The position numbers and the translations under genes were made by a program. The notes under the pieces were generated by a model. It saw only the letters and a list, made by a program, of their open reading frames with translations. It was not told the origin of the DNA and did not search any database. DNA of 64,000 nt from Streptomyces sp. NBC_01451 (GTDB lineage Bacteria; Actinomycetota; Actinomycetes; Streptomycetales; Streptomycetaceae). This document shows, piece after piece, positions 45,781 to 60,510 of the stretch; within the stretch, counting starts at the first letter, position 1; every line of letters begins with the position of its first letter. Where the stretch lies: positions 620,001 to 684,000 of the forward strand of contig NZ_CP109479.1 in assembly GCF_036227485.1 (NCBI RefSeq), given 5' to 3'.

Positions 45781-46503
45781 CTACCGGGCCGCTTCCACCA
45801 ACGCGTCGAACAGGGCCTGCTGGGCCGGGTCCTCGTGCGCGGTGTCCTCGGGGTGCCACTGAACGGCAGCGAACCAGCCCCGGGTGTAAGGGAGTTCGAG
45901 CGCCTCGACCGTGCCGTCCGCCGCTGTCGCGGTGACCTCCAGGCCGGTGCCCGGGCGGTCGACGCGCTGGTGGTGGTAGCAGGACACCTCCGCCTTCTCG
46001 GCACCGATCACCCGTGCCAGCAGGGAGTCCTGACGGATCGTCACCGGCTGGACGACGTGCCGGTGTTCGCGGTCCGGTCCGCCCATGTCCTGGTGCAGGG
46101 TGCCACCCAGAGCGACGTTGACCACCTGGAGGCCGCGGCAGATCACGAGCAGCGGGACGCCCGACTCCAGTGTGCTGCGGGCGACCTGGAGGTCGAAGGT
46201 GTCCTGGAGGTCGTCGACGTCGTAGACCGTGTCGTGGGTGTCGGCGGCGCCGTAGCGGTGCGGGGCGAGGTCGCCGCCGCCGGGGAGCAGGACACCGTCG
46301 AAGCGGGCGAGGCGGGCGGCGACCTCGGTGTCGGCGCAGTCCGCGGGGTGGATCGTCGCCGGTTCACCGCCCGCCCGCCAGACGGCCTCGATCAGGGCGC
46401 GGGCGTTGACCTCGGCGGCGTGGCGCAGCGCGGACGTGGAGGCGGCGAAGCGGGCCGGGATCGCGATGAGCGGCCTCGATAGCCTCGTCGCCCGCGTCGT
46501 CAC
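45781..46503 (-). CDS. Gamma-glutamyl-gamma-aminobutyrate hydrolase-like (PuuD, class I GATase)
   Basis: 240 residues. Peptidase C26/PuuD family: PLIAIPARFAASTSALRHAA start, VLLPGGGDLAPHRYG, VPLLVICRGLQVVNVALGGTLHQD (nucleophile Cys in ICRG), and late AVQWHPEDTAHEDP (His-Glu of the triad). PuuD hydrolyses the gamma-glutamyl amide after oxidation of the amine side, releasing glutamate. GTG 46503 overlaps the stop of the aldehyde dehydrogenase (GTGA); upstream frame extension overlaps that gene and is not real. It is the last gene of a permease-dehydrogenase-hydrolase operon. Confidence 0.9.
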   Translation of the reverse strand: MTTRATRLSRPLIAIPARFAASTSALRHAAEVNARALIEAVWRAGGEPATIHPADCADTEVAARLARFDGVLLPGGGDLAPHRYGAADTHDTVYDVDDLQDTFDLQVARSTLESGVPLLVICRGLQVVNVALGGTLHQDMGGPDREHRHVVQPVTIRQDSLLARVIGAEKAEVSCYHHQRVDRPGTGLEVTATAADGTVEALELPYTRGWFAAVQWHPEDTAHEDPAQQALFDALVEAAR

Positions 46504-47990
46504 AGCTGGATCCAGGTGGTCTTGAGCTCGGTGTACTTCTCCAGGGCGTGCGCGGACTTGTCGCGGCCGTTGCCGGACTGCTTCATGCCGCCGAAGGGGA
46601 CGGTCAGGTCGCCCTCCTCGTAGCAGTTGACCCAGACCGTGCCTGCCTTCAGGGCCCGCGAGACCTGGTGGGCGGTGGTCAGGTCCGAGGTCCACAGACC
46701 GGCGGCGAGGCCGTACTCGGTGGCGTTGGCCAGCCGTACCGCCTCGTCCACGTCGTCGAAGGTGAGGACGGACAGGACGGGGCCGAAGATCTCCTCGCGG
46801 GCCAGGCGGCTGCCGGGCCCGACCCGGTCGAAGACGGTCGGTTCCAGATAGGTGCCGCCCGTGGTCTCCAGGACGCGGGTACCGCCCGTACGCAGCCGGG
46901 CGCCCTCCTCCCCGCCCGTGGCGATGTGGTCGAGTACGCGGCCCAGGTGGGCCTCCCCGACCAGTGCGCCCATCTCCGTGGCGGGGTCGAGGGGGTCACC
47001 GACGCGCAGTTCGCGTGCCCGGCGGACGATGGCCTCGGTGACCTGCTCGGCGACGGAGGAGTGGACCAGGAGCCGGGAGGGTGCGGTGCACATCTCGCCC
47101 TGGTTGAAGAAGATGCCCCAGGCGGCGGTGGCGGCGGCCTTCTCCAGGTCGGGGGCGTCGGGAAGGACGATGTTGGGCGACTTGCCGCCCAGCTCCAGCC
47201 AGACGCGCTTGAGGTTGGAGTCGGCCGCGTAGTGCAGGAAGTGGCGTCCGACGGCGGTGGAGCCGGTGAACGCCAGTACGTCGACGTCGGGGTGGAGTCC
47301 GAGTGCTCGTCCGGCACCCGGGCCGTCACCGGCGACGACGTTGAGGACGCCCGGCGGCAGCCCGGCCTCGGTGCCGAGCCTGCCGAGGTGGAGGGCGGAC
47401 AGCGGGGAGTTCTCCGAGGGCTTGAGGACGACCGTGCAACCGGCGGCGAGCGCCGGGGCGACCTTCCAACCGGCGAGCGTGAGCGGGAAGTTCCAGGGGA
47501 CGACCGCGCCGACGACGCCGGCCGGCTCGCGGGTGACGAGGGCGAGTGCGTCGGGCGCGGTGTGCGGGGACTCGTCGGTGAGTTTGTCGGCCAGCTGCCC
47601 GTACCAGCGGAAGGTGGTGATGGCGGCACGCAGTTCGATGTCGTGCGCGTCCGTGATCGGCTTGCCCATCTCCAGGGTCACCGTCAGGGCGAGCGACTCG
47701 CGCTGCTCTTCGAGGAGTTCGGCGAGCCGCAGCAGCACCCGGCCCCGTTCGGCGGGCGCGAGGCGCGGCCAGGGGCCGGTGTCGAAGGCCCGGCGGGCGG
47801 CGGCGACGGCGGCGTCCACCTCGGCGGGGCCGCCGTCGGCGACCTCGGTCAGCACCTGGCCGTCGCGCGGCGAGACGACGGCGAAGGTGGCACCGCCGCC
47901 GGGTTCGTCCCGGCCGTCGATGTGGTGTGCGCCGGGCACCACCGGCGCCTTGGCTCGGCGGAGCCACTCGTCGTGGGTGACAGGCGGCAT
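46500..47990 (-). CDS. Aldehyde dehydrogenase, PuuC-like
   Basis: 496 residues, full-length NAD(P)-dependent aldehyde dehydrogenase. Cofactor-site stretches are VVPWNFPLTLAGWKVAPALA and FTGSTAVGRHFL. The Glu region is LELGGKSPNIVLPDA, and the catalytic Cys is in FNQGEMCTAPSRLLV. FGPVLSVLTFDDVDEAVRLA is also standard. Between an amine permease and a PuuD-like hydrolase, its likely substrate is a gamma-glutamylamino aldehyde or related aldehyde. ATG 47990 with GGAGG at 5-nt spacing. Confidence 0.9.
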   Translation of the reverse strand: MPPVTHDEWLRRAKAPVVPGAHHIDGRDEPGGGATFAVVSPRDGQVLTEVADGGPAEVDAAVAAARRAFDTGPWPRLAPAERGRVLLRLAELLEEQRESLALTVTLEMGKPITDAHDIELRAAITTFRWYGQLADKLTDESPHTAPDALALVTREPAGVVGAVVPWNFPLTLAGWKVAPALAAGCTVVLKPSENSPLSALHLGRLGTEAGLPPGVLNVVAGDGPGAGRALGLHPDVDVLAFTGSTAVGRHFLHYAADSNLKRVWLELGGKSPNIVLPDAPDLEKAAATAAWGIFFNQGEMCTAPSRLLVHSSVAEQVTEAIVRRARELRVGDPLDPATEMGALVGEAHLGRVLDHIATGGEEGARLRTGGTRVLETTGGTYLEPTVFDRVGPGSRLAREEIFGPVLSVLTFDDVDEAVRLANATEYGLAAGLWTSDLTTAHQVSRALKAGTVWVNCYEEGDLTVPFGGMKQSGNGRDKSAHALEKYTELKTTWIQL

Positions 47991-48092
47991 GCGGGCCTCC
48001 AGAGACAGATGGATGTGCGGGGAATGGGCGAGGACACGGGTGAAGGCCCCCGGAGCGGCGGGTGCCGCTCCGGAGGCGGGCGCGCGGCCGGG

Positions 48093-49553
48093 TCAGGCGT
48101 CGCCGGCCGTCGCGCGGGGGCGGGTCAGCCGGGCGGTGACGAGACCGAGGGCCATGACGGCCGGGACGGTCAGCTCCAGCCACAGGGCGGTGTCGCTGTC
48201 GCCGCCGATGAGGGTGGTGAAGTTGTCGAGGATCAGCCAGACGGCGCCCGCGACGGCGACCGTGGCCAGGGCGGGCGCGATCAGCGTGTTCCAGAGCCGT
48301 GTGTCGAGGCGCTCGCGGCGGAAGAAGACGACCACGGACACCGAGGTCAGCAGGTACAGGAGCATCATCCCGAGGACGGCGACACCGCTGAACCAGGAGA
48401 AGAGCGTCAGCACGGGGTCCTTGCCGGTGAAGGCGAACGGCACCACCAGGACCACCGCGACGGCCGTCTGCACACACCCCGCCACCCAGGGCGAACGGCG
48501 GCTGTTGAGCGTGCAGAGGCGGCCGGGGAGCAGTCCGTCGCGGCCCAGTGAGAAGAGATAGCGGTTGGCCGAGTTGTGGAAGGTGAGGAGGCCGGCGAAG
48601 AGGGAGGTGGCCAGCAGGACCGGCAGGACGTCGTTGACCCAGTTGCCGAACTCGGCGGCGATCGGGGCGAAGACGAACGCCGTCGAGTCACCGCTCTCCA
48701 GCGCCTGGCCCGCCGCCGCGACGGCCTTCGAGGCGCCGTGTGCGGAGACCAGCATCCAGGACGTCAGGGCGAAGAAGCCGACGACCACGACGATCGCCAG
48801 ATAGGTGGCCCGCGGGACGGTCTTCTTCGGTTCGCGCGCCTCCTCGCCGTAGATCGCGGTGGCCTCGAAGCCGAACATGGACGCGAGGGCGAACATCACG
48901 GCCACGCCCGGCGCGCCCTGGGTCACCGCGCTCGGTGAGAAGGTCTCGGAGATCCCCAGACCTTCCGGGCCGCCGCCCTTGAAGAGCGTGACCAGGCTGA
49001 AGACCAGCAGGATGCTGAACTCCGCGAGGACGAAGACCGCGAGCAGTCTGGCGCCCATGTCGATGCCGGTGGCGCCGAGCAGTTGCACGAGGGCCATCGT
49101 GGCCAGCGACCACACCCACCACGGGAGGTCGAGTCCCGTGTGCGCGCTGACCAGTCCGTTGACGATGGCGCCGTACAGCCCGTACATGGCGGCCTGGATG
49201 GCGCAGTACGCGAAGAGCGCCACGCCCGCGCTGCCGGCGCCGGCGGTCCGCCCGAGGCCCTTGCCGATGTACGTGTAGAAGGCGCCCGCGTCGACGACGT
49301 GCCGGCCCATGGTGACGAAGCCGACGGCGAAGAGCAGGGTCACCACCCCGACGAGGACGTACGCGCCGGCCGTGCCGGGACCGTTGCCGATCGCCACGGA
49401 GATGGGGACCGACCCGGCGATGCCGGTGAGCGGCGCCTGGGCGGACAGGACGAGGAAGAGGATGCCCAGTACGCCGAGCGCGTTGGGCTTGAGCTTGCCT
49501 GCGGTGGATGCGTCCCGCGCGGTCTGCTCTGGGGAGACCGTCTGACTGTCCAC
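48093..49553 (-). CDS. APC superfamily amino acid/amine permease
   Basis: 486 residues, 12 predicted membrane helices. The first helix region LGVLGILFLVLSAQAPLTGI has the helix-break typical of APC proteins. LASMFGFEATAIYGEEAREPKKTVPRAT carries the 'GFE..A..GEE...P' signature, and FHNSANRYLFSLGRDGLLPG follows. Many relatives carry amino acids or amines. GTG 49553 has AGGTGA upstream at good spacing; GTG 49562 would sit on that site. It heads a three-gene operon with PuuC-like and PuuD-like enzymes; a palindromic operator lies 31 bp upstream. Confidence 0.9.
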   Translation of the reverse strand: MDSQTVSPEQTARDASTAGKLKPNALGVLGILFLVLSAQAPLTGIAGSVPISVAIGNGPGTAGAYVLVGVVTLLFAVGFVTMGRHVVDAGAFYTYIGKGLGRTAGAGSAGVALFAYCAIQAAMYGLYGAIVNGLVSAHTGLDLPWWVWSLATMALVQLLGATGIDMGARLLAVFVLAEFSILLVFSLVTLFKGGGPEGLGISETFSPSAVTQGAPGVAVMFALASMFGFEATAIYGEEAREPKKTVPRATYLAIVVVVGFFALTSWMLVSAHGASKAVAAAGQALESGDSTAFVFAPIAAEFGNWVNDVLPVLLATSLFAGLLTFHNSANRYLFSLGRDGLLPGRLCTLNSRRSPWVAGCVQTAVAVVLVVPFAFTGKDPVLTLFSWFSGVAVLGMMLLYLLTSVSVVVFFRRERLDTRLWNTLIAPALATVAVAGAVWLILDNFTTLIGGDSDTALWLELTVPAVMALGLVTARLTRPRATAGDA

Positions 49554-49583
49554 TCGGATCACCTGCCAGGGAAAGAGGGGTAA

Positions 49584-49601
49584 TCGTTTCAGGCCAAACG
49601 A
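49584..49601 (-). promoter_or_regulatory. Palindromic operator (TCGTTTGGCCTGAAACGA) before the permease operon
   Basis: Perfect 6-bp arms TCGTTT and AAACGA around a 6-bp centre, 31 bp upstream of the permease start and downstream of a TTGCCA/CACCAT promoter-like pair on the minus strand. The same motif recurs at 56198 and 56306. A half copy (CGTTTGGC) lies at 49629-49636. Confidence 0.65.
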
Positions 49602-49686
49602 GTTGCCTCATGGTGGGGTGGAACTATCCGTTTGGCAAGGGGTTCGGCGCGGAGATTCGGGCACCGACGGGATTTATTGCACGACC

Positions 49687-49743
49687 GTGATGCACGAAGG
49701 TGATGCGCGAAGGTGATCCATGACCGTGATCCACGGCCGTGAT
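49687..49743. repeat. 13-bp tandem repeat beginning GTGATSC, 4.4 copies
   Basis: Units are GTGATGCACGAAG, GTGATGCGCGAAG, GTGATCCATGACC, GTGATCCACGGCC and a partial GTGAT, in exact 13-bp register. It lies between the end of the TetR gene and the amine-permease promoter region. The palindrome CCGTGATCACGG at 50399-50410, before the same TetR gene, carries the same GTGATC core. Confidence 0.7.
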
Positions 49744-49757
49744 CGGCCCGAGACGGC

Positions 49758-50366
49758 TCAGGCCTCGCGGGAGCGGTCGGCGGCCAGGATACGAAGGACG
49801 TCGCGCAGCTCGTCGAGCGCGTCCTCGATGATCTCGCGCTCGCCGAACACGAGCTGGTGGAGGACCAGCCCCTCCAGCGTGGCGAAGACCATGCGGGACA
49901 GGCCCTCGCCGACCGGCCCCGGCAGCAGCTGGGAGAGCTCGCGCCGGGTGGCCTCGAAGTACTCGCCTTCGTACAGGGCCCGCAGGTGGGTGAGCAGCTC
50001 GGGCCTGCGGCGGGACTCCAGCAGCAGTTCGTACTGGAAGGCCTGGAGGTCGGGGCCGCTCTCCACCATCTCCGTCAGACCGGCCGAGAAGTCGGCCGCC
50101 CTGCCCGTACCGGTTTCGAGGTCGCTGCTGGTCAGGGAGGAGCGGATGGCGTGGGTGAGGGCTTCCTCGATCAGCGCGTCGCGCGAGCCGAAGTGGTGCA
50201 CGACGAGCCCGTGGGTGACCCCCGCCTCCTCGGCGACAGCCCGGTACGTGAGCTTGCGGAGCCCGCCGCGGGCCACCACACGTACGGCGGCGTTCAGCAG
50301 GGCCTCGCGGCCGGCTCCGTAGGTCACGCGCTTGCGGCGGCGGCGCGGGGCGGCGGGCTCGGTCAT
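49758..50366 (-). CDS. TetR/AcrR family transcriptional regulator
   Basis: 202 residues. N-terminal TetR helix-turn-helix (GREALLNAAVRVVARGGLRK, then YRAVAEEAGVTHGLVVHHFG, about 12-62) follows an Arg/Lys tail. The ligand domain has EMVESGPDLQAFQYELLLES. It is the last gene of the ring-cleavage operon (FAH-like, LigB-like, aldehyde dehydrogenase) and lies beside the divergent-in-function amine permease operon on the same strand, so it is a good candidate for binding CGTTTGGCYTSAAAC. ATG 50366. Confidence 0.87.
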   Translation of the reverse strand: MTEPAAPRRRRKRVTYGAGREALLNAAVRVVARGGLRKLTYRAVAEEAGVTHGLVVHHFGSRDALIEEALTHAIRSSLTSSDLETGTGRAADFSAGLTEMVESGPDLQAFQYELLLESRRRPELLTHLRALYEGEYFEATRRELSQLLPGPVGEGLSRMVFATLEGLVLHQLVFGEREIIEDALDELRDVLRILAADRSREA

Positions 50367-50410
50367 GCCCGCGACCCTACCCGTGGCCGTGACCCTGCCC
50401 GTGATCACGG

Positions 50411-51256
50411 TCAACGCCGTGGCGCCCGGATGCCGCGGAACTCCCAGTCGCCGCCGAGCGCGGTGGACAGGACCTCCTCGGACTCGGTGGGCTGCGCGCC
50501 GACGTCGGTGCGGATCGGGGCCGGTCCGGTGACGATGTGGTTGGTGAGCCGACCGAGCCCCTCGACCTCGACCTCGACGACGTCGCCGGGCCGGACGGGC
50601 CGGGAGTTGGCGGGCGTACCGGAGAGCAGTACGTCGCCCGGGTAGAGGGTGATGGTGCGGGCGATGTCGGCGACGAGGTAGTGCATGTCCCACTCCATCT
50701 CGTCCGTCGAACCGTCCTGCGCGATCTCCCCGTTGACGTACGTCCGCAGGTACTTGCCGTGGAAGTCCCAGTCGGTGACCAGGCCGGGGCCGAGCGGGCA
50801 GAGCGTGTCGGAGCCCTTGACGCGGAGCATCGAGCCGGCGTCGGTGTCACGGAAGTCGTGCAGTCCGTAGTCGTTGGCGACGGTGTACCCGGCGATGTAC
50901 TCCCCCGCCTCGGCCTGCGAGATGTTCCGCGCGGTCCTGCCGATGACGATGGCGACCTCACCCTCGTAGTTGAGCCACTTGCAGCCCTCCGGGCGGACGA
51001 CGGCGCCCCGGTGGGAGTTGAGGGAGGAGGTCGGCTTGTGGAAGTAGGTGGGCGTGGGGGTGAGCCGGATCTGGAACTCGTCGACGCGGCTGCGGTGGTT
51101 GAGGTGCACGGCGACGACCTTGGAAGGCACGACGGGAGGCAGGTGCCGTGCCTCCTCGGTCTTGACCCGGCGGCCGTCCCCGGCGACGAGTTCGTCACCG
51201 TCGACGGTGACCTGGACGGTGGCGCCGTCGAGGAGGATGCGGCGGTATTCGGGCAT
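50411..51256 (-). CDS. Fumarylacetoacetate hydrolase family protein (HpaG-like)
   Basis: 281 residues. FAH-fold signatures are LNSHRGAVVRPEGCKWLNYE-type start (RPEGCKWLNYEGEVAIVIGR with the metal Glu), GEYIAGYTVANDYGLHDFRD, and DVLLSGTPANSRPVRPGDVVEVEVEGLG. This branch includes the isomerase/decarboxylase (HpaG/HpcE) acting on 5-oxopent-3-ene-tricarboxylate or hydroxyheptadienedioate in homoprotocatechuate breakdown, and other meta-pathway hydratases/decarboxylases. The ATG is 1 nt after the upstream gene's stop. The reaction is inferred from the neighbours. Confidence 0.85.
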   Translation of the reverse strand: MPEYRRILLDGATVQVTVDGDELVAGDGRRVKTEEARHLPPVVPSKVVAVHLNHRSRVDEFQIRLTPTPTYFHKPTSSLNSHRGAVVRPEGCKWLNYEGEVAIVIGRTARNISQAEAGEYIAGYTVANDYGLHDFRDTDAGSMLRVKGSDTLCPLGPGLVTDWDFHGKYLRTYVNGEIAQDGSTDEMEWDMHYLVADIARTITLYPGDVLLSGTPANSRPVRPGDVVEVEVEGLGRLTNHIVTGPAPIRTDVGAQPTESEEVLSTALGGDWEFRGIRAPRR

Positions 51257-51257
51257 G

Positions 51258-52178
51258 TCAGCGCTCCTGTACGGGGGTTCGGGGGGCGGTCCAGCCGGCG
51301 GCGGGGCGGTCGAACCACAGGTGGACCTGGCCGGTGCCGACGGAGTTCTCGTACTCGCCGTACTGGCGGGCGGGTGCGGTGCAGGCCTGCTCGCCGAGGG
51401 CGCCGGCCAGCATCAGGTAGTGGAAGAACTTCGCCTCGGGTTTGTACTTCCAGAACTCCGGCATGGTGTCGAGGACCTTGTCGTGGCGGCCCTCCTTGAA
51501 CCAGGCGATGCGCTCCTCGTCGGCGGCGCGGGCCTCCGGCGTGAAGATGTGCGACGGGTCGCTGGCCTCGTGGTCGCGGATCTGGCGCAGCGGCCAGAAG
51601 GTGTGCGAGAGGGCACCGGAAGCGATGACGAGCACCCGGCGTCCCGGAGTGGCGGCGATACCGTCGGCGAGCGCCCGCCCCAGCCGCAGATGGTCCTCCA
51701 TGTCACCGGTCTGGCAGACCCCGATGGTCACCCACCGCTTGTCCGGCAGGCCCTCGCCGAGGAACTTCCACAGATTGATCGTGGCGTAGTACACCGGCAG
51801 GTGGTCGTCGTCGATCGGCGTGATCCAGGTGCCGTGCTTGTCGGCGAACTGGGCGATGTTGTGGGCGAGTTCCGGGTCCCCCGGATAGTCGTACGGCATC
51901 CGGCACATACCGCGCGGCAGTTCCTCGGAGGTGAAGAGGCCGGCCCTGCGGTGCTGGGCACCGACGACGAACTCCACGGTGGTCGCCCAGTGCGAGTCGA
52001 GGACGACGACCGTGTCGTACTCGCCCGCGGCGTCGTTGTCGAAGACGTCCTCGCGGAGCTGGTGCAGGCCGGTGACGAGGGTGATCTCCCTGCCCTCGTT
52101 CAGTTCCAGCCGGTCCGCCTCGGGCAGGACGATGGTGGGCACGTGGGCGAGCAGGCCCGCCCCGACGATCTCACCCAT
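51258..52178 (-). CDS. Class III extradiol ring-cleavage dioxygenase (HpaD/LigB-like)
   Basis: 306 residues. LigB-family Fe(II) enzyme: GLLAHVPTIVLPE carries the first metal His, VLDSHWATTVEFVVGA the second, and VIASGALSHTFWPLR the acid/base His region; a metal Glu lies in the SHIFTPEARAADEE area. Similarity is to 3,4-dihydroxyphenylacetate 2,3-dioxygenase-type enzymes that open catechols beside the hydroxyls. The start overlaps the aldehyde dehydrogenase stop by 8 nt. It supplies a semialdehyde for that dehydrogenase. Confidence 0.87.
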   Translation of the reverse strand: MGEIVGAGLLAHVPTIVLPEADRLELNEGREITLVTGLHQLREDVFDNDAAGEYDTVVVLDSHWATTVEFVVGAQHRRAGLFTSEELPRGMCRMPYDYPGDPELAHNIAQFADKHGTWITPIDDDHLPVYYATINLWKFLGEGLPDKRWVTIGVCQTGDMEDHLRLGRALADGIAATPGRRVLVIASGALSHTFWPLRQIRDHEASDPSHIFTPEARAADEERIAWFKEGRHDKVLDTMPEFWKYKPEAKFFHYLMLAGALGEQACTAPARQYGEYENSVGTGQVHLWFDRPAAGWTAPRTPVQER

Positions 52179-53637: not shown

Positions 53638-53688
53638 AAGAACGGCTCCAATGAAGGGAAGTTGGGGTGATCAGCCTGCTTTGAGGGG

Positions 53689-53717
53689 GGCGGGGCTGCG
53701 ACATTCGCGGCTCCGCC
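53689..53717. other. GC-rich imperfect inverted repeat in the 126-bp gap before the hpaE-like gene
   Basis: GGCGGGGCTGCG (53689-53700) and CGCGGCTCCGCC (53706-53717) pair with two mismatched positions and a 5-nt loop. It could mark a weak terminator dividing the minus-strand run of genes into two operons. Confidence 0.3.
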
Positions 53718-53763
53718 GCGTGGGCGCGAACAACCACGGCGCACCCCGCACCCGCCCACTGCC

Positions 53764-54576
53764 TCACCCGGCAGACGCTCCGGACGTCCCCGACTCCAAC
53801 AACCGCCCGCCGTCCCAGACCACGCCGACCTGGCGGTAGTACGCGGCGATCGGCTCCCGGATCTCCAGCCGGGCCAACTCCTCCGTGGGCGCCGGGAACA
53901 ACTCCAGGTCCGCGTCCCCGACCCACGCCTGCCCGCCCTCGAACGAGGCGGCCCCGGACTCGATCAACTCGTCGAGAGCCAAGCCCTTTCCGCTCTCGAT
54001 GGACGGCAGCCACCGGTGATGGGCCATCGGGTGGCCGTTCACGAACCCGTTGGTGTCGGAAGGCTCCCGCAACGTCACCACCGCCTGAGCCAACCGCCGG
54101 TCGGCGGCGGCCAGCGTCGCGCCGAAGCGCGCCCCCGCCGCGATCCGGGGAGCGGGCCCGTACGGATGCGGACGCGTCTGATGAATCGACCCGAACTTCT
54201 TCGGATACCCCTGGTGCAGCCCGCGAGCGATCGCGAAGTCCTTGTCGACCCAGATGTAGACGCACCGCGAGTACGTCTCGCCCCGGTACTTGCAGCGGAC
54301 GACGGCGAACGCCTCCTTGTACTGCCCGCGCACGGGATCCAGCAGTTCGTCCCCCGACTCCGAGCACGACTGCCAGTCGGCCCAGATCAGGGCGACCGCA
54401 CCCGGCTCCTCGTCGGCCAACTCCAGTGGCTCGGGGAGCAGTTCACGCACCCGCGAGGGGTCCGTGCGGTACTCGACGGTCAGCAGGTCGCCCGAGTAGC
54501 GCCAGGGCGGCGAGGGGATGAGCGACGAGGCACCGCTCACCGTCTTGGGGTGGAAGAACCCACGGGGACCGGTCAC
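53764..54576 (-). CDS. Acetoacetate decarboxylase family protein
   Basis: 270 residues. LIPSPPWRYSGDLLTVEYRT start, LEPLELADEEPGAVALIWADW-like middle (LADEEPGAVALIWADWQSCS), and IARGLHQGYPKKFGSIHQTR, which carries the KK pair of the Schiff-base Lys region of acetoacetate decarboxylases. Relatives with altered pockets act as decarboxylases, aldolases or dehydratases on other beta-keto or pyruvyl acids. A meta-cleavage product is a plausible substrate here. GTG 54576 follows AAGGAG and overlaps the reductase stop (GTGA). Confidence 0.85.
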   Translation of the reverse strand: MTGPRGFFHPKTVSGASSLIPSPPWRYSGDLLTVEYRTDPSRVRELLPEPLELADEEPGAVALIWADWQSCSESGDELLDPVRGQYKEAFAVVRCKYRGETYSRCVYIWVDKDFAIARGLHQGYPKKFGSIHQTRPHPYGPAPRIAAGARFGATLAAADRRLAQAVVTLREPSDTNGFVNGHPMAHHRWLPSIESGKGLALDELIESGAASFEGGQAWVGDADLELFPAPTEELARLEIREPIAAYYRQVGVVWDGGRLLESGTSGASAG

Positions 54577-55889
54577 TTGGAGGCTCCTTGCACAGTGAGA
54601 GCGGACGGCACGGCGGAGGTGGAGGTGGAGGTGGAGGTGGACGGCACGGCGGGGGTGGGCTGCTTGAGCAGGTCGGTCCGGTAGCGGGCGGCCTTCGCGG
54701 CGGCGGTATGCCCCCCGAGGGCGACGACACCGACGAGACGCTCGCCGATGTGGTAGCCGACGACGACCTCTCCGTCCGGGTCGCCGTCCAGGACCCGTAC
54801 GTCGTCGATGCCCAGCACCGGCGCGCCGAAGGACTGGAGCCGGAAGTCGTGCTGGTCGCTCCAGAAGGTGGGCAGCGGGGCGAAGGGCGCCGACTCCCTT
54901 TCCCTGCCCGCCAGATGAGCGGCCAGGGACTTCGCCGCGTGCTTCGCGGTGTCCGTCGGGATGGACCAGTGCTCGACGCGGCGGGGTACGCCGTCGTAGC
55001 GGGCGTTGGGGAAGCGGGCCACGTCGCCGACCGCGACGACCTCCGGGCGTCCGCCCACCCTGAGCCACTCGTCGGTGAGCACGCCGTCGCCGAGATCGAC
55101 CCCGTTGCCGTCCAGCCACTCGACGTTGGCGACGGATCCGACCGACTCCACGACGACGTCGGCCGGCAGGACCGTACCGTCGCCGAGCACGACACCGGTG
55201 ACCCGGTCGTCGCCCTCGAACCCGGCGACTCCCGTGCCGAGCGCGAAGCGCACCCCGCGTTCCTCGTGCCGCCGGAGCAGCGCGCGGGCGAGGAGTTCGC
55301 CGAGGGGGCCCACCATGGGCAGGGGCAGCGGATCGACGACGGTGACCTCGGTGACGCCGAGTCCGACGGCCGTGGCGGCGACCTCGCAGCCGATGAACCC
55401 CGCGCCGACCACGACGACCCTGACACCGGGCCGGGTCAGCTCGTCACGCAGGCCCCGGGCGTCGGCGAGGGTGCGTACGGTGTGGCGGCCGGTCCGCGGG
55501 CCGGAGCAGCGCAGGCGCCGGGGACGCATCCCCGTGGCGATGACGAGACCGTCGTAGGCGAGGGTCGAGCCGTCGTCGAGGTCGACGGCACGCTCGTCGA
55601 GACGGGCCGCGACGGCCCTCGTGCCGAGGCGCCACTCGACGTCCGCCGTCGACGCCTTCGGGGTGAGGGCGAGGGAGTCGAAGGACGCCTTGCCGGCCAG
55701 CACCTCCTTGGACAGCGGAGGGCGGTTGTAGGGCATGTGCGGTTCGTCGCCGACGACCGTGACGGCCCCGGTCCAGCCGGCCGCACGCAGCTGCTCGGCG
55801 GCGCGCAGCCCGGCCATGGAGGCCCCGACGACGACCACACGCCCCGAAGACATGTCCGTCCCGCTGGTCCCGTCCGTTCTGCCGGGCAC
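54573..55889 (-). CDS. Ferredoxin reductase (FAD/NAD(P)H-dependent, P450 partner type)
   Basis: 438 residues. FAD site VVVVGASMAGLRAAEQLRAA, family motif PYNRPPLSKEVLAGKASFDSL-like (YNRPPLSKEVLAG), NAD(P)H site VVVVGAGFIGCEVAATAVGL, and a second FAD site VVAVGDVARFPNARYDG. The C-terminal reductase domain (about 325-410) is present. The end is a low-complexity STSTSTSTSA tail from a hexanucleotide repeat. GTG 55889 follows GAGGA, 1 nt after the ferredoxin stop. It should pass electrons from NAD(P)H to the adjacent ferredoxin. Confidence 0.9.
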   Translation of the reverse strand: MPGRTDGTSGTDMSSGRVVVVGASMAGLRAAEQLRAAGWTGAVTVVGDEPHMPYNRPPLSKEVLAGKASFDSLALTPKASTADVEWRLGTRAVAARLDERAVDLDDGSTLAYDGLVIATGMRPRRLRCSGPRTGRHTVRTLADARGLRDELTRPGVRVVVVGAGFIGCEVAATAVGLGVTEVTVVDPLPLPMVGPLGELLARALLRRHEERGVRFALGTGVAGFEGDDRVTGVVLGDGTVLPADVVVESVGSVANVEWLDGNGVDLGDGVLTDEWLRVGGRPEVVAVGDVARFPNARYDGVPRRVEHWSIPTDTAKHAAKSLAAHLAGRERESAPFAPLPTFWSDQHDFRLQSFGAPVLGIDDVRVLDGDPDGEVVVGYHIGERLVGVVALGGHTAAAKAARYRTDLLKQPTPAVPSTSTSTSTSAVPSALTVQGASK

Positions 55890-55890
55890 G

Positions 55891-56079
55891 TCAGTCCTCG
55901 ATCCGGATGGCCTGGAGCGGGCAGACGTCCGCGGCCTCCTCGGCCTCGTCGCGCAGCGCGTCGTCGGGGTCGGAGACGTACAGCAGGTGACCGCCGTCGT
56001 CCATCGAGAAGACGTCGGGTGCCGCGAAGACGCACTGGCCGTGGTCCTGGCACTTGTTCATGTCGACGACGACCTTCAT
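55891..56079 (-). CDS. Small ferredoxin, [3Fe-4S]/[4Fe-4S] P450-partner type
   Basis: 62 residues: MKVVVDMNKCQDHGQCVFAA, acidic middle, then EAADVCPLQAIRIED. The cluster motif is C-x2-H-x2-C with a remote CP, typical of actinobacterial ferredoxins that serve P450s and often hold [3Fe-4S]. ATG 56079; an upstream frame extension to 56211 is not supported. It is the first gene of the minus-strand operon and is divergent from the ligase/P450 genes through a 352-bp control region. Confidence 0.92.
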   Translation of the reverse strand: MKVVVDMNKCQDHGQCVFAAPDVFSMDDGGHLLYVSDPDDALRDEAEEAADVCPLQAIRIED

Positions 56080-56197
56080 GGCCGGTCCTCCTGGTGGTGA
56101 GGGCGTCGGTACGGGGGTGAGGTGGAGAGGCTGGGGAGGGGCCCGACCCCTGTCGGAGCGGGCCCCGGCCAAAGGGGACGGTGAACCGACCCCTGAC

Positions 56198-56215
56198 TCG
56201 TTTGGCTTCAAACAA
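56198..56215. promoter_or_regulatory. Palindromic operator copy 1 in the ferredoxin/ligase divergent region
   Basis: TCGTTTGGCTTCAAACAA, with GTTTG/CAAAC arms. It lies 119 bp upstream of the ferredoxin start. The 352-bp region (56080-56431) has no gene. Besides this site and the copy at 56306, it contains a notably AT-rich centre (56225-56270) with TAGCTAT and GATAAAT -10-like hexamers. Confidence 0.65.
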
Positions 56216-56305
56216 GATAGGAAGCAGTCGGAGTCTGGTCAATAGCTATCCGGATGGATAAATTCTTTCCCCGACCCTCTTGCGGGACGGGCCACTCCTC
56301 CATAC

Positions 56306-56321
56306 CGTTTGGCCTCAAACA
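56306..56321. promoter_or_regulatory. Palindromic operator copy 2 in the ferredoxin/ligase divergent region
   Basis: CGTTTGGCCTCAAACA: arms GTTTG and CAAAC with a 4-bp centre, 107-108 bp from copy 1 and 110 bp before the ligase GTG. The two sites flank the AT-rich centre, a layout fitting dual control of two divergent promoters. Confidence 0.65.
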
Positions 56322-56431
56322 ACGAGCCCGGGATGTCCGCCCGCACCGCGCGCCCCGGCCGCACTCCCCACGCCACCCGCCTCCCGGACCCCCGTTCCGG
56401 AGGTGCCCGACGTCCGCCCGAGGAGACAACG

Positions 56432-57802
56432 GTGAGCGCAATCGACCTTCCAGAAGTCCGCCGGCACATCGAGCGGCTCACCGCCGAGGGGATCGACGTG
56501 GTCCGGGTGGTCTATCCCGACCTCATCGGCACCGACCGCGCCCGAGACGTACTCGTCGACGGGCTGTCGCGCGCCTGTGAGCACGGGCTCGCCTTCTGCC
56601 GGGCCGTCTACCACACCAGCCCCCAGGGCGATGTGGTGCCGGTCAGCGGCGGCCTGGACGCGGGGCTGCCCGACATCTGCGTCCGGCCCGACCTGTCCAC
56701 CCTCGTAGCCCTGCCCTGGGAGCCCGGCGTCGCGGCCTGCCTCGGGGACGTCGTCGACCCGGCGACCGGCTCACCCGCGCCCGAGTCGCCCCGCGACCTG
56801 CTCCGCGCCGTACTCGACCGGTGCGCCGAGCACGGCCTGCGGCCCGTCGTCGGGCCCGAGCTGGAGTACTACCTGTGCGATCCCGCACCGGAGGGCGCGA
56901 GCGGCTGGCAGCGGTACAACCGGGACCCGGGCGTCGTCTACACGGCCGGTCTGCGCGCCGACCCCGACAACCACCTGCTGCGGACCCTGCGCCACGTACG
57001 CGATCTGAACATCGGCGTGCTCAGCGGAAACCACGAGTTCGACGGCGGGCAGTTCGAGATCAACCTGCTGCACTCGGAGGCCATGTCGGCGGCCGACCGG
57101 GCCTTCCGGTTCAAGGCCGCGGTCAAGGAGCTTGCACGCAGGGAGGGCCGGCTCGCCACCTTCATGGCGAAGCCCTTCAACGACGCGGGCGGCTCCGGCT
57201 TCCACCTCCATCTCTCCTGCGACTCGGACCCCGACGGGGACGGCGGCGCGCGCAACCTCTTCGACGATCCCTCGGGGCCGTACGGACTGTCCGCGACGGC
57301 ACGGCACGCGGCGGCCGGTCTCCTCGCCCACGCGCCCGCCCTCGCCGCGCTGCTCAACCCGACCGTCAACTCGTACAAGCGCTTCGGTCCGGACACCCTC
57401 GCGCCCTGGCTGATCGACTGGGGGCTCGACAACCGCAGCGCCATGGTCCGGATCCCGCCGGAGCGCGGGTCCGGGGCCCGGCTCGAACTGCGGCTCGGCG
57501 ACGCCAGCTCCAATCCGTACCTCGCGATCGCCGGTGCCGTGGCCGCCGCGCTGCTCGGAGTGCTGGCCGGTGAAGAGCCGTCGGCCCCGCTGGAGGGCTA
57601 CGGCTACGACACCGACAGGTCCGCCGTGCTGCCGATGAGTCTGCCGGCCGCCCTCGACGCCCTGGAGGCGGACACCGCGCTGACCGAGGTGCTCGGCAAG
57701 GACTTCGTCGCCTCCTTCCTCGCCTACAAGCGCAACGAGGTCGAACGCTTCCAACGGCACGTCACCGACTGGGAGTTCACCGAGTACGCGTACCACCTCT
57801 GA
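56432..57802 (+). CDS. Glutamine-synthetase-like gamma-glutamyl amine ligase (GlnA/PuuA family)
   Basis: 456 residues. The GS catalytic barrel is intact: VVGPELEYYL (ExE metal pair), GNHEFDGGQFEINLLHSEAM (metal Glu), GGSGFHLHLSCDSD (metal His), LNPTVNSYKRFGPD, NRSAMVRIPP and ARLELRLGDASSNPYLAIAG. The N-terminal segment VVYPDLIGTDRARDVLVDG takes the place of the ammonium-binding Asp loop, and there is no adenylylation Tyr loop, as in PuuA/GlnA3/GlnA4-type ligases that join glutamate to amines. GTG 56432 with GAGGAG upstream. Its amine is unknown; linked P450 and ring-cleavage genes favour an aromatic amine. Confidence 0.88.
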   Translation: MSAIDLPEVRRHIERLTAEGIDVVRVVYPDLIGTDRARDVLVDGLSRACEHGLAFCRAVYHTSPQGDVVPVSGGLDAGLPDICVRPDLSTLVALPWEPGVAACLGDVVDPATGSPAPESPRDLLRAVLDRCAEHGLRPVVGPELEYYLCDPAPEGASGWQRYNRDPGVVYTAGLRADPDNHLLRTLRHVRDLNIGVLSGNHEFDGGQFEINLLHSEAMSAADRAFRFKAAVKELARREGRLATFMAKPFNDAGGSGFHLHLSCDSDPDGDGGARNLFDDPSGPYGLSATARHAAAGLLAHAPALAALLNPTVNSYKRFGPDTLAPWLIDWGLDNRSAMVRIPPERGSGARLELRLGDASSNPYLAIAGAVAAALLGVLAGEEPSAPLEGYGYDTDRSAVLPMSLPAALDALEADTALTEVLGKDFVASFLAYKRNEVERFQRHVTDWEFTEYAYHL

Positions 57803-57878
57803 TACTCCCCGACCACTCTGATCCCCCCGATACCTCCGATCGCCCTGATCGCCTCTGTACGACCTGCTGGAGCCTTCG

Positions 57879-59186
57879 ATGACCGAGACCGCCTCCTCCG
57901 CCGCCGTCACCGCGGACCCCGCCGCCGCTCTTGAGCCGCTCCCCCTCGACGCCGTCGACCTCGCCGACCTCGACAACTTCACCGACGGGGTGACCCCCTG
58001 GCGGATGTTCCACACACTGCGCCACGAGGACCCGGTGCACTGGCAGCCCGAGGAGGCGCCCAACTCCGGTTTCTGGGCGGTGACCCGGCACGCGGACATC
58101 GCGCGCGTCGACCGCGACGCGGAGACCTTCACCTCCACGAAGTTCGTCAACCTCGAAGAGGTCGACGAGGACCAGATCAGGAAACGCGCCTCCATCCTGG
58201 AGCTGGACGGGGTGCGGCACCGGGCCCTGCGCAGCGTGATCCAGCGGCAGTTCGGCGCGGGCGTCATCAACAGCTACACCGACTTCCTGCGCGGGCTCAC
58301 CGCGCAGACCCTGGACGCGGCGCTGGCCAAGGGGAGCTTCGACTTCGTCAAGGAGGTCTCCGCCGACTTCCCCATCAACGTCCTGGCCCGCCTCCTCGAC
58401 GTACCGCCGGAGGACAACCAGCGGCTCATCGACTGGGGCAACCGGATCATCGGCAACACCGACCCCGACTACGCCGACGTGCTGCTGCACAGCGCGGAGA
58501 GCGAGAAGTACCGCGACCTGCCCTTCCGCTCCCCCGCCTCGCTCGAAGTCTTCGAGTACGGACGGGAGCTGGCCCGGCAGCGGCGCGGCGGCGAGGGTAC
58601 CGACCTGGTCTCCAGGCTCGTCAACACCACCCCGCGCGACGGAGTGCCGCTGTCCGCGCAGGACTTCGACAACTACTTCCTGCTCCTCGTGGTGGCCGGG
58701 AACGAGACCACCCGGCACACCATCAGCCACTCCATGCTGGCCCTCCTCCAGCACCCCGAGCAGCTCGCCCGTCTCAAGGCCGACCCGTCCCTGATCCCGG
58801 GCGCGGTCGAGGAGTTCCTGCGCTGGGCCTCCCCCGTCTACCACTTCCGGCGCACCGCGACCCGCGACGTGGAGCTGGGCGGCAAGCAGATCAGGGAGGG
58901 CGACAAGGTCGTCATGTGGTACGCCTCCGGGAACCGTGACGAGGCGGTCTTCGGCGATCCGTACGCCTTCGACGTCGCCCGCGCGGACAACGACCACGTC
59001 ACCTTCGGCAAGGGCAGCCCGCACCTGTGCCTGGGGAACCTGCTGGCCCGCACCGAGATCCGGATCATGTTCGAGGAGCTGATCCCGCGCCTCGCGGACA
59101 TCCGGCTGACCGGGGATGTTCCCCGGGTGCGCTCGAACTTCGTCAACGGGATCAAGAAGCTGCCGGTGGAGGTCACCCTCGCGTGA
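57879..59186 (+). CDS. Cytochrome P450 monooxygenase
   Basis: 435 residues. I-helix VVAGNETTRHTISHSMLALL, K-helix VEEFLRWASPVYHFRRTATR (ExxR), heme loop TFGKGSPHLCLGNLLARTEI with thiolate Cys384. The C-terminus FEELIPRLADIRLTGD and RSNFVNGIKKLPV resembles the CYP124/125/142 clade. It is a soluble class I P450 that would use the ferredoxin and reductase encoded across the divergent promoter. It follows the ligase by 76 bp in the same direction, so it may hydroxylate or dealkylate the gamma-glutamylated substrate. Confidence 0.92.
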   Translation: MTETASSAAVTADPAAALEPLPLDAVDLADLDNFTDGVTPWRMFHTLRHEDPVHWQPEEAPNSGFWAVTRHADIARVDRDAETFTSTKFVNLEEVDEDQIRKRASILELDGVRHRALRSVIQRQFGAGVINSYTDFLRGLTAQTLDAALAKGSFDFVKEVSADFPINVLARLLDVPPEDNQRLIDWGNRIIGNTDPDYADVLLHSAESEKYRDLPFRSPASLEVFEYGRELARQRRGGEGTDLVSRLVNTTPRDGVPLSAQDFDNYFLLLVVAGNETTRHTISHSMLALLQHPEQLARLKADPSLIPGAVEEFLRWASPVYHFRRTATRDVELGGKQIREGDKVVMWYASGNRDEAVFGDPYAFDVARADNDHVTFGKGSPHLCLGNLLARTEIRIMFEELIPRLADIRLTGDVPRVRSNFVNGIKKLPVEVTLA

Positions 59187-59207
59187 GCCATCGGCGGGAC
59201 CGGGAGT

Positions 59208-59241
59208 GCACTCAGTTCCCCGGACACAGCGCACTGAGTGC
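59208..59241. promoter_or_regulatory. Paired ACTGAGTGC sites before the TetR gene
   Basis: GCACTCAGT (59208-59216, reverse orientation) and GCACTGAGTGC (59231-59241, an 11-bp palindrome) lie just upstream of a TAGTTT -10 (59262-59267), 7 nt before the TetR ATG. The same motif recurs at 60016. Likely autoregulatory operator with a leaderless start. Confidence 0.55.
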
Positions 59242-59274
59242 CATCGGCCCCGGTCTGATGCTAGTTTCCCGACC

Positions 59275-59991
59275 ATGACCAAACCGCCCATGCGGGACGC
59301 CCTGGTCGCGGCGGCCTTCCAGCTGTTCCTGGAACGGGGCTACGAGCAGACCACCGTGGACGACATCGTGGCGCTGGCCGGGGTGGGGCGCCGGTCGTTC
59401 TTCCGCTACTTCCCCTCCAAGGAGGACGTGGTCTTCCCCGACCACGAGCGGTGCCTCGCCGACATGACCGCTTACCTGGCCGAAAGCGCCGAGGACGCCG
59501 AACCGGTCGGACGGGTGTGCGACGCCGCTCGCATGGTCCTGCTCATGTACGCCGAGAACCCGGCCTTCTCCGTCCAGCGCTACCGCCTCACCAAGAAGGT
59601 CCCCGGGCTGCGCGCGTCCGAGCTGTCGGTGGTCTGGCGGTACGAGCGCGCCCTGGCCGCGTATCTGCGCGGGCGTTTCGCCGGCCGGCCCGACGGGACG
59701 CTCCAGGCCGACGTGATCGCGGCGGCCGTCGTCGCGGCCCACAACAACGCCCTGCGCTCCTGGCTGCGCTCGGACGGCCACGGCGACTCGACCACGGCCG
59801 TCGACCACGCCCTGGACTATGTGAAGGCCGCGTTCGGCACTCCGCCCCCGGCTCCCGGCCGGGACGGGCCCGGAACCGGGCCGGAGTCCGGGTCCGAGGA
59901 CGTGGTGGTCGTCGTCTCGCGTCGCGGGGCGCCCATGTGGCGGGTCGTCCAGGAGATCGAGTCCGCGCTCACCACACAGCGCGAGAATTGA
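59275..59991 (+). CDS. TetR family transcriptional regulator
   Basis: 238 residues. The HTH is MRDALVAAAFQLFLERGYEQ with TTVDDIVALAGVGRRSFFRYF and FPSKEDVVF (about 5-60), of the type found in many Streptomyces oxidation-linked regulators. The C-terminal domain has RYRLTKKVPGLRASELSVVW. A Pro/Gly-rich stretch then precedes a final basic helix (VVVVVSRRGAPMWRVVQEIE), an unusual 40-residue extension. It is between the P450 and the DUF35-like gene; shared ACTGAGTGC sites suggest it controls itself and the latter. Confidence 0.88.
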   Translation: MTKPPMRDALVAAAFQLFLERGYEQTTVDDIVALAGVGRRSFFRYFPSKEDVVFPDHERCLADMTAYLAESAEDAEPVGRVCDAARMVLLMYAENPAFSVQRYRLTKKVPGLRASELSVVWRYERALAAYLRGRFAGRPDGTLQADVIAAAVVAAHNNALRSWLRSDGHGDSTTAVDHALDYVKAAFGTPPPAPGRDGPGTGPESGSEDVVVVVSRRGAPMWRVVQEIESALTTQREN

Positions 59992-60015
59992 GGGTACGCA
60001 GTGCCTTTACGCGTG

Positions 60016-60027
60016 ACACTGAGTGCC
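60016..60027 (+). promoter_or_regulatory. ACTGAGTGC-type site before the DUF35 gene
   Basis: ACACTGAGTGCC lies 76 bp upstream of the DUF35 GTG and repeats the site at 59231 (CACTGAGTGCCAT is identical at both). It probably binds the same TetR protein. Confidence 0.5.
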
Positions 60028-60102
60028 ATACCCTGAGGCCGTGCACGGTGGCACGGCGAACCGCGCACTTCGGATTCAGGCCGAGCGCAGGGAGATGACA
60101 CC

Positions 60103-60510
60103 GTGTACCACTCACTAGGCGCCACGCGTCCGACGACCGGTTCCGCCACGGGCCTGCTGGAGGCTCCGGCCGACACGAACACCCTCGTCTTCCAGCGCTG
60201 CGGCTGGTGCTCCAGCGCCATGTACCACCGGCTGCTCTGCCCGGTCTGCGCGGGCAGCGACCTGCGTACGGAACGCAGCGAGGGCACGGGCACGGTCCGG
60301 CACGCCACCGTGGTCAACCGGAACACGCCGGCCGCGCGCAATGTGTCGCTGGTCGAGATGGCCGAGGGCTTCGTGGTACGCGGCCGGGTGATGGGTCCGG
60401 CCGCCGGCATCCACAGCGGAGACCGGGTCCGCCTCGCCACGGCGAAGGACCCGGTGCGCGGCGAGCCGGTGTTCCAGCTGCTCGACGAGCCGTACCGCGC
60501 CTGGATCTGA
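60103..60510 (+). CDS. Zinc-ribbon/OB-fold protein (DUF35)
   Basis: 135 residues. The zinc ribbon is CGWCSSAMYHRLLCPVC (CxxC...CxxC), followed by an OB-fold (GTVRHATVVNRNTPAARNVS, RGRVMGPAAGIHSGDRVRLA). Members are acyl-CoA-binding partners of thiolases, MaoC hydratases or aldolases, for example ChsH2-type. No thiolase or MaoC gene is in this window, which is unusual. GTG 60103 follows AGGGAG. Control by the adjacent TetR is inferred from shared sites. Confidence 0.86.
   Translation: MYHSLGATRPTTGSATGLLEAPADTNTLVFQRCGWCSSAMYHRLLCPVCAGSDLRTERSEGTGTVRHATVVNRNTPAARNVSLVEMAEGFVVRGRVMGPAAGIHSGDRVRLATAKDPVRGEPVFQLLDEPYRAWI

Follow-up and report, generated by a model that had tools for sequence, protein, structure and literature searches.

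Two bacterial routes of well-established chemistry, the Puu pathway of Escherichia coli and the homoprotocatechuate (Hpa) meta-cleavage pathway, are the closest described counterparts of the locus studied here. The Puu pathway proceeds via gamma-glutamyl-putrescine and comprises PuuA, the FAD oxidase PuuB, PuuC and PuuD. Within the genus Streptomyces, GlnA2 and GlnA3 of S. coelicolor reportedly allow the use of polyamines via gamma-glutamylation. The excerpted text of PMC6529630 describes ethanolamine use through gamma-glutamylation by GlnA4 of the same species, and that of PMC11335346 provides a precedent for glutamylating an aromatic amine first and oxidising it afterwards, as AtdA1 or NpaA1 glutamylates aniline or 1-naphthylamine ahead of a Rieske oxygenase. 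Here we analyse a 64,000-nucleotide section of the 10.27 Mb chromosome of Streptomyces sp. NBC_01451 (the window, G000:C1:620001-684000), in which a conserved cluster of catabolic genes combines relatives of the Puu and Hpa enzymes.

On balance, we favour a scheme in which this cluster serves the catabolism of an arylethylamine, most probably tyramine, dopamine or a methoxy derivative, with glutamate attached in the first step and kept to the end. More tentatively, we propose a complete case, in which the tag would be retained through ring opening, the Hpa route would join the Puu route at 4-(gamma-glutamylamino)butanal, an enzyme of the acetoacetate decarboxylase (ADC) superfamily would act as a hydratase-aldolase, and dopamine or tyramine would be converted to gamma-aminobutyrate (GABA) and pyruvate. 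The observations behind these proposals are the gene content and its conservation, family and residue assignments, a shared palindrome, and the linkage of a decarboxylase to the cluster in relatives.

Gene content, conservation and shared palindromes

Between 40 and 64 kb of the window, 94 open reading frames (ORFs) of at least 90 amino acids were listed, and 30 window ORFs were scanned with Pfam. All enzymes named in an initial annotation of this DNA were found (a C26 peptidase, two aldehyde dehydrogenases, a permease, FAH, LigB, a reductase, a ferredoxin, a glutamine synthetase (GS) relative, a P450 and ADC), together with a TetR gene at 49758-50366 that it had overlooked. The TetR and DUF35 genes at about 59260-60510, which fell within its limits, are not members, and once they are excluded the cluster extends over approximately 45781-59186. 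On the minus strand, from 56079 down to 45781, lie the genes for ferredoxin, ferredoxin reductase, the ADC-superfamily protein, the HpaE-like protein, LigB, FAH, TetR, an APC permease and the PuuC-like and PuuD-like proteins; on the plus strand, from 56432, the GS-like ligase gene is followed by that of the P450:

45781..46503, minus strand: PuuD-like gamma-glutamyl hydrolase (peptidase C26); PF07722, 175 bits; GTG start at 46503 from the translation
46500..47990, minus strand: PuuC-like aldehyde dehydrogenase with 4-(gamma-glutamylamino)butanal as proposed substrate; 51% identity to PuuC of E. coli
48093..49562, minus strand: APC-family amine/amino-acid permease; PF00324 and PF13520; 23% identical to PuuP over 328 amino acids
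49584..49601, unstranded: operator-like palindrome ahead of the permease operon; GTTTCAGGCCAAAC at 49586-49599
49758..50366, minus strand: TetR-family regulator TetR1, within the cluster between permease and FAH; TetR_N and TetR_C_31
50411..51256, minus strand: FAH-family enzyme, proposed decarboxylase (HpaG C-terminal type); 38% identical to the HpaG C-terminal half
51258..52178, minus strand: LigB-family extradiol dioxygenase (HpaD-like); PF02900, 87.2 bits
52171..53637, minus strand: HpaE-like ring-cleavage semialdehyde dehydrogenase; TIGR02299, 537.7 bits
53764..54576, minus strand: ADC-superfamily enzyme (MppR/4zbo type), proposed hydratase and retro-aldolase; PF06314, 193.9 bits; GTG start at 54576 from the translation
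54573..55889, minus strand: ferredoxin reductase of the P450 system; PF07992, 206.5 bits
55891..56079, minus strand: single-cluster ferredoxin; PF13370, 51.3 bits
56198..56215, unstranded: operator-like palindrome, ferredoxin side; GTTTGGCTTCAAAC at 56200-56213
56305..56322, unstranded: operator-like palindrome, ligase side; GTTTGGCCTCAAAC at 56307-56320
56432..57802, plus strand: glutamine-synthetase-like ligase, predicted to form gamma-glutamyl amides; PF00120, 313.9 bits
57879..59186, plus strand: cytochrome P450, CYP124/125 group; PF00067, 69.9 bits; in 63 of 66 full-length loci
about 59260-59991: TetR2, a neighbour, not a cluster member; in 5 of 66 full-length loci
60103-60510: DUF35, a neighbour, not a cluster member; in the same proportion of loci

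According to the translations, the likely starts of the PuuD-like and ADC genes overlap the ends of the preceding genes; the ADC domain was detected in an ORF at 53764-55119, of which the gene proper occupies about 53764-54576.

A scan of one genome per species gave 222 confirmed stretches encoding a LigB relative. From these, the 80 best were selected (77 are Streptomyces by title), and 66 of the 80 have full flanks of 10 kb (the full-length loci). Genes were counted as present at an identity of at least 45% in the full-length loci, and at any identity in 21 distant loci from other genera (the L094 decarboxylase, for example, at 34%). All eight core genes (P450, GS, ferredoxin, reductase, ADC, HpaE-like, LigB and FAH) occur together in 63 of the 66 full-length loci, the exceptions being L016, L063 and L084, and 55 of these 63 have the permease, PuuC-like and PuuD-like genes as well. 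TetR1 is found in 60 full-length loci, an upstream amidohydrolase in seven and the TetR2 and DUF35 pair in five. Co-occurrence on this scale greatly exceeds chance.

Across the class, 30 of 394 sampled genomes, from 12 of 137 genera, encode LigB relatives (E ≤ 1e-30). The 21 loci from other genera (L091-L111), several of which end at contig boundaries, all carry the HpaE-like, LigB and FAH genes, with GS and P450 in 17 each, ADC in 16, ferredoxin and reductase in 15 each and a PuuD-like gene in 11. Since other genera keep the GS, P450, HpaE-like, LigB and FAH genes in one place despite a reshuffled gene order, two unrelated modules that happen to lie side by side are unlikely. Within Streptomyces, LigB (counted at an identity of at least 76%) is present in 83 of 392 sampled genomes, as 87 copies, the P450 in 76 and both in 73; the initial annotation had made its reading depend on the genes occurring together, and together they are found. 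Left out of this sample were seven genomes with LigB matches of 57-59% identity and G519, with split decarboxylase hits. Roughly one in five of the sampled Streptomyces species has the cluster, which also occurs in other actinobacterial genera.

Three genomes (G603, G605 and G723) have two LigB copies each, every copy with its own P450 within 16 kb. A second LigB group, of 57-59% identity, comprises G356 (L112:9920-10984, 57% identical and from the same genus, with no other cluster gene nearby) and genomes G410, G437, G449, G451, G598, G618 and G635; four of seven matches of this group contain an in-frame stop. In 6 of the 21 distant loci (L099:12644-14194; L098, L101, L102, L104 and L107), a protein of about 515 amino acids, with no Pfam or NCBIfam match and no hydrophobic stretches, is encoded next to the reductase or decarboxylase gene. 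Outside the cluster, a 929-amino-acid ORF (window 60693-63482, plus strand) has coding-like third-position GC and no Pfam match.

The palindrome GTTTN6AAAC occurs three times in the window, against 0.08 expected, and none of 100 shuffles reached three. One site lies before the permease gene and two between the ferredoxin and ligase genes, which supports the earlier view that the parts of the cluster are fused by regulation. A site, with a spacer of 5-7 allowed, stands between the GS and ferredoxin genes in 72 of 77 loci in which these two are near neighbours. In 63 of the 77, a site lies in the 400 bases ahead of the permease, and 59 combine the two (at least three genomes enter these counts twice). 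The whole genome contains 35 GTTTN6AAAC sites, of which 24 read exactly GTTTCACGTGAAAC and lie between 4.49 and 4.87 Mb; we take these to be ParB sites, probably near the origin. One further site, at 6,177,216, is similar to the two ligase-side sites; it adjoins a TPR protein, has no visible link to the cluster and was discounted.

TetR1 is a candidate, though not a certain, owner of the palindromes, as sites also stand in loci without TetR1 (L040, L095, L154 and L164) and the window genome encodes a MarR relative of the cluster regulator elsewhere. Several TetR1-less loci that keep the palindromes carry a MarR relative, whose nearest copy in the window genome (73% identity) is about 6.2 Mb away. 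At that place (L170:8141-10855; G000:C1, about 6.83 Mb), it forms a unit with an F420-type luciferase-like oxidoreductase and a class-I glutamine amidotransferase, and many other loci have relatives of these three genes within the cluster or next to it.

Enzyme resemblances and the proposed route

The two aldehyde dehydrogenases divide between the two known pathways. The PuuC-like enzyme is nearer to E. coli PuuC (455 bits) than to HpaE (41% identity, 343 bits), with 561 bits to NF007352 (cut-off 850), and the HpaE-like enzyme is 43% identical to E. coli HpaE versus 40% to PuuC, its TIGR02299 score lying under the cut-off of 638.35; we count this split in favour of a joined Puu and Hpa scheme. 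The PuuD-like protein is 28% identical to E. coli PuuD (NF008471, 73.7 bits, cut-off 266), and it retains Cys, His and Glu in the PuuD columns in at least 98% of 84 copies, a count that, like the other residue counts below, may include some genomes twice. The ligase is 31% identical to PuuA and 34-39% identical to four paralogues in its own genome; its score of 249.5 bits to NF045547 is below the level of a PuuA equivalog (cut-off 650). It has DVVP where the paralogue L123, taken to be GlnA, has DGSS, and we propose that it is a gamma-glutamyl-amide ligase that would couple glutamate to an organic amine, in the manner of the amine-type GS-like ligases (GoaS).

On the ring-cleavage side, LigB is 29.5% identical to E. 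coli HpaD, with 123.8 bits to TIGR02298 (cut-off 315.95). Its H12, H63, H192 and E248, presumably the metal ligands (two His and the Glu) and the catalytic base, are shared with HpaD and conserved in at least 98% of 111 copies. A role as 2-aminophenol dioxygenase was rejected, the PDB match being 26.8 bits versus 74 bits to 3,4-dihydroxyphenylacetate dioxygenase. The FAH protein scores 126 bits against the C-terminal half of HpaG, which we take to be the decarboxylase, and 98 bits (31% identity) against the N-terminal half, with the halves split at residue 206. Its E98-x-E100 stands unchanged in at least 98% of 110 copies. At E ≤ 1e-3, it gave no blastp match to HpaH of E. coli, the rest of the genome lying outside this search. 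Membership of the ADC protein in the MppR/ADC-like superfamily follows from its PF06314 domain, its nearest solved chains (MppR, 161.9 bits, and 4zbo, 159.6 bits; also 6eej) and a conserved lysine, presumably the Schiff-base former; Lys123 and Lys124 are both kept in at least 98% of 102 copies. The score to TIGR04460 is 179.8 bits, under the cut-off of 380. As for the usual aldolase, HpaI, the genome has no match at E ≤ 0.001 to TIGR02311, a model that matched 4 of 14 controls, none above its cut-off; the search was confined to this one aldolase model.

All the reactions that follow, their sequence, the substrate and the regulator are inferred. The permease would import the amine, for instance tyramine, and the GS-like ligase would form its gamma-glutamyl amide. 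The P450, with its ferredoxin and reductase, would make a catechol, via hydroxylation or O-demethylation. LigB would then open the ring by 2,3-extradiol cleavage, the HpaE-like enzyme would oxidise the resulting semialdehyde and FAH would remove CO2. The MppR-like ADC enzyme would add water and, by a retro-aldol reaction, release pyruvate, leaving 4-(gamma-glutamylamino)butanal, which the PuuC-like enzyme would convert to gamma-glutamyl-GABA and the PuuD-like enzyme would hydrolyse to GABA and glutamate (substrates and products are named after those of E. coli PuuC and PuuD). If the steps of the homoprotocatechuate route, as given in the excerpted text of PMC12718150, are followed on a ring with side chain R, our atom mapping would give pyruvate and OHC-CH2-R. 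With R = CH2CH2-NH-gamma-glutamyl, this aldehyde would be 4-(gamma-glutamylamino)butanal, the substrate of PuuC, and PuuB would not be needed because the aldolase step itself would supply PuuC's aldehyde.

The ADC-like enzyme had been given an unusual late step in the initial annotation, and this step is best read as hydration plus retro-aldol cleavage, given the kinship to MppR and 4zbo/6eej, the lack of an HpaI-model match and a suggestion made for phenol degradation in Saccharolobus; there, according to the excerpted text of PMC7820114, an aldolase role was suggested for ADC-related proteins, two such genes being raised 77- and 82-fold. The hydratase activity may reside in the same enzyme.

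The earlier reading also held that the P450 either hydroxylates a glutamyl-protected aromatic amine before extradiol cleavage, which fits most of the evidence, or that the P450 triad replaces PuuB. In the latter case, the P450 system would oxidise a gamma-glutamylated aliphatic amine or alcohol to the aldehyde used by PuuC, and the ring-cleavage genes, controlled by one regulator with it, would handle a separate aromatic substrate, which we regard as quite improbable. It would explain why GS-like, PuuC-like and PuuD-like genes are present with no PuuB-like family among the 30 window ORFs scanned (the rest of the genome was not searched for PuuB), and it agrees with the action of the closest solved P450s on aliphatic chains. 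However, L016, L063 and L153 hold LigB, HpaE-like, FAH, ADC, PuuC-like and PuuD-like genes without a linked P450, and in L063 and L153 the GS-like gene is also present, with a decarboxylase in place of the P450. Moreover, ring-cleavage genes accompany GS in 17 of the 21 distant loci, and a PuuC-like gene in 3, and PuuC's aldehyde would arise directly once the ring of a glutamylated arylethylamine is cleaved.

A different course, in which the glutamyl group is transient and removed before ring cleavage as in aniline degradation, is in our view unlikely. Free dopamine or homoprotocatechuate would then be cleaved, and the PuuC-like enzyme would act on another aldehyde. A second, class-I glutamine amidotransferase gene in 15 of the 21 distant loci, and elsewhere in the window genome (L170), could serve this removal, as such an amidotransferase reverses glutamylation in aniline degradation in the excerpted account of PMC11335346. 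Nevertheless, no amine oxidase or transaminase family was found among the 30 ORFs scanned, and free dopamine would end at 4-aminobutanal, needing no PuuD-like hydrolase. We prefer the scheme in which the tag would be kept until the PuuD-like step.

Decarboxylase-type variants and the likely substrate

Two of the 66 full-length loci, L016 and L063, have no P450, ferredoxin or reductase and instead encode a pyridoxal-phosphate decarboxylase between FAH and ADC. Its best NCBIfam models are tyrosine decarboxylases (115-125 bits, below cut-offs) and its best solved chain is 5hsi, titled "putative decarboxylase", which we take to be a tyrosine decarboxylase. Among the 87 LigB copies of the genus, 71 have a P450 within 16 kb, 10 have a tyrosine-decarboxylase relative within 6 kb, six have neither and none has both (Fisher values for this exclusion ignore the relatedness of the genomes). 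Four of the six have a P450 on another contig or further off, and G531 and G542 have none; in L150 and L151, which encode LigB with neither P450 nor decarboxylase, no other hydroxylase was seen among five ORFs scanned with Pfam. The decarboxylase-type loci fall in three places in a tree of joined LigB, HpaE-like and FAH proteins, and the decarboxylase gene lies between FAH and ADC or next to FAH. These variant neighbours point to an arylethylamine whose ring would have to become a catechol. The GS-like gene of L016 looks broken (L016:7192-7605, matching ORF of 137 amino acids).

Among the 21 loci from other genera, 4 (L091:16702-18717, L095, L106 and L107) have a Rieske O-demethylase pair of the VanA/VanB type close to the P450, ligase or ADC gene, which suggests methoxylated ring substrates in some genera. 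A gene with a formyl-transferase domain is present in another 4 of the 21, L097 (10148-11002), L098, L099 and L102, which have the P450 and no VanA/VanB pair; its product might handle one-carbon units from demethylation. Both genes might fit the release of a methoxy carbon, and with it a different ring degraded by the same logic, such as 3-methoxytyramine, octopamine, a methoxylated phenethylamine or a benzylamine, with the P450 acting as an O-demethylase. We consider this fairly unlikely, as the decarboxylases of the P450-less loci best match tyrosine decarboxylase models, which points towards tyramine or dopamine, and one of these two would be our preferred substrate.

Several findings weigh against this scheme, some of them concerning the substrate. 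Of the 56 genomes counted as encoding the tyrosine-decarboxylase relative, 46 show no linkage of it to LigB, and in eight unlinked loci (L155-L162) no further cluster gene is close by. At E ≤ 1e-60, the window genome is without such a relative; it encodes three other proteins of the decarboxylase superfamily, two of which are 37% and 32% identical to the L098 decarboxylase. Another decarboxylase of the same superfamily occurs in 9 of the 21 other-genus loci and is accompanied by the P450 in eight of these nine, so that mutual exclusion holds only within Streptomyces. The best PDB chain for the one of these that was searched, from L098, is DOPA decarboxylase (223.6 bits), and the best NCBIfam model for the L098 and L104 enzymes is that for L-2,4-diaminobutyrate decarboxylase (219.4 and 191.3 bits against a cut-off of 900), with the models for tyrosine decarboxylase behind it, which makes the substrate of the distant decarboxylases uncertain. 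The identity of the substrate is suggested by neighbours in other genomes, with an uncertain decarboxylase specificity.

Other such findings concern the enzymes and the gene set. None of ten cluster proteins scanned reaches its curated NCBIfam cut-off. The P450 best matches CYP125MRCA (412 bits, 52.9% identity over 395 aligned residues), then CYP124; its closest solved relatives, CYP125MRCA, CYP124, CYP125 and CYP268, are lipid and steroid hydroxylases, and this kinship gives no support for an aromatic substrate. No HpaF gene is linked to the cluster, the one match to the CHMI family lying 6.5 Mb off (34.9 bits, cut-off 26.5), and a single FAH protein is available for decarboxylation. In Acinetobacter, according to the excerpted text of PMC12718150, efficient decarboxylation requires CHMI, OPETD and HHDDI together, and the cluster's one FAH would have to suffice or get help from genes elsewhere. 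A permease, PuuC-like or PuuD-like gene is missing nearby in 8 of the 63 core loci, a PuuC-like gene was seen in 3 of the 21 other-genus loci (32-41% identity), no GS was seen within the stretches retrieved for L151, L152 and L163, and the palindrome was not seen in L016, L063 and L153.

Comparison with known systems

If true, this scheme would account for 12 genes that are conserved as a set in a major soil genus, connect catecholamine breakdown to GABA, give the ADC-like superfamily a catabolic role and provide a source of enzymes for glutamate-protected amine chemistry. We found no description of a glutamyl-tyramine or glutamyl-dopamine route, or of a Streptomyces cluster with GS and extradiol genes, in the open-licence literature; one may exist elsewhere.

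The morpholine and piperidine P450 clusters of mycobacteria have a P450, ferredoxin, reductase and GS-like gene together, as here, and to our knowledge no extradiol ring-cleavage enzymes. The GlnA4 and GlnA2/GlnA3 pathways of S. coelicolor belong to the same genus and share the gamma-glutamylation of amines, but involve no ring chemistry. Aniline and 1-naphthylamine degradation, as far as described in the excerpts of PMC11335346, resembles the cluster in its GS-like ligase, amidotransferase and oxygenase acting on a gamma-glutamylated aromatic amine; there, however, the tag departs as the catechol forms, whereas here it would stay through ring opening. The trio of GS-like ligase, glutamine amidotransferase and two-component Rieske dioxygenase typical of gamma-glutamylanilide formation was not found in the window: no Rieske family is present among the 30 ORFs scanned, and the P450 system stands in its place.

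With the homoprotocatechuate/4-hydroxyphenylacetate meta pathway, the cluster shares HpaD-, HpaE- and HpaG-C-like enzymes in one operon, and many related loci have a MarR relative of HpaR (23% identity, 46.6 bits). It differs in the ADC-superfamily enzyme of the operon, in a genome without a match to the HpaI model, and in the P450, which takes the place of the flavin hydroxylase HpaBC; the proposed substrate would carry a side-chain amine instead of a carboxylate. With the E. coli Puu pathway, it shares a GS-like ligase for adding a glutamate tag, final steps of the PuuC and PuuD type and, as proposed, the intermediate 4-(gamma-glutamylamino)butanal; unlike in E. coli, the scanned ORFs include no PuuB, and the aldehyde would come from ring cleavage and a retro-aldol step on an aromatic substrate. 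Each half of the proposed pathway is of a known kind, and the new part would be the joining of gamma-glutamylated amine catabolism to homoprotocatechuate-type meta cleavage.

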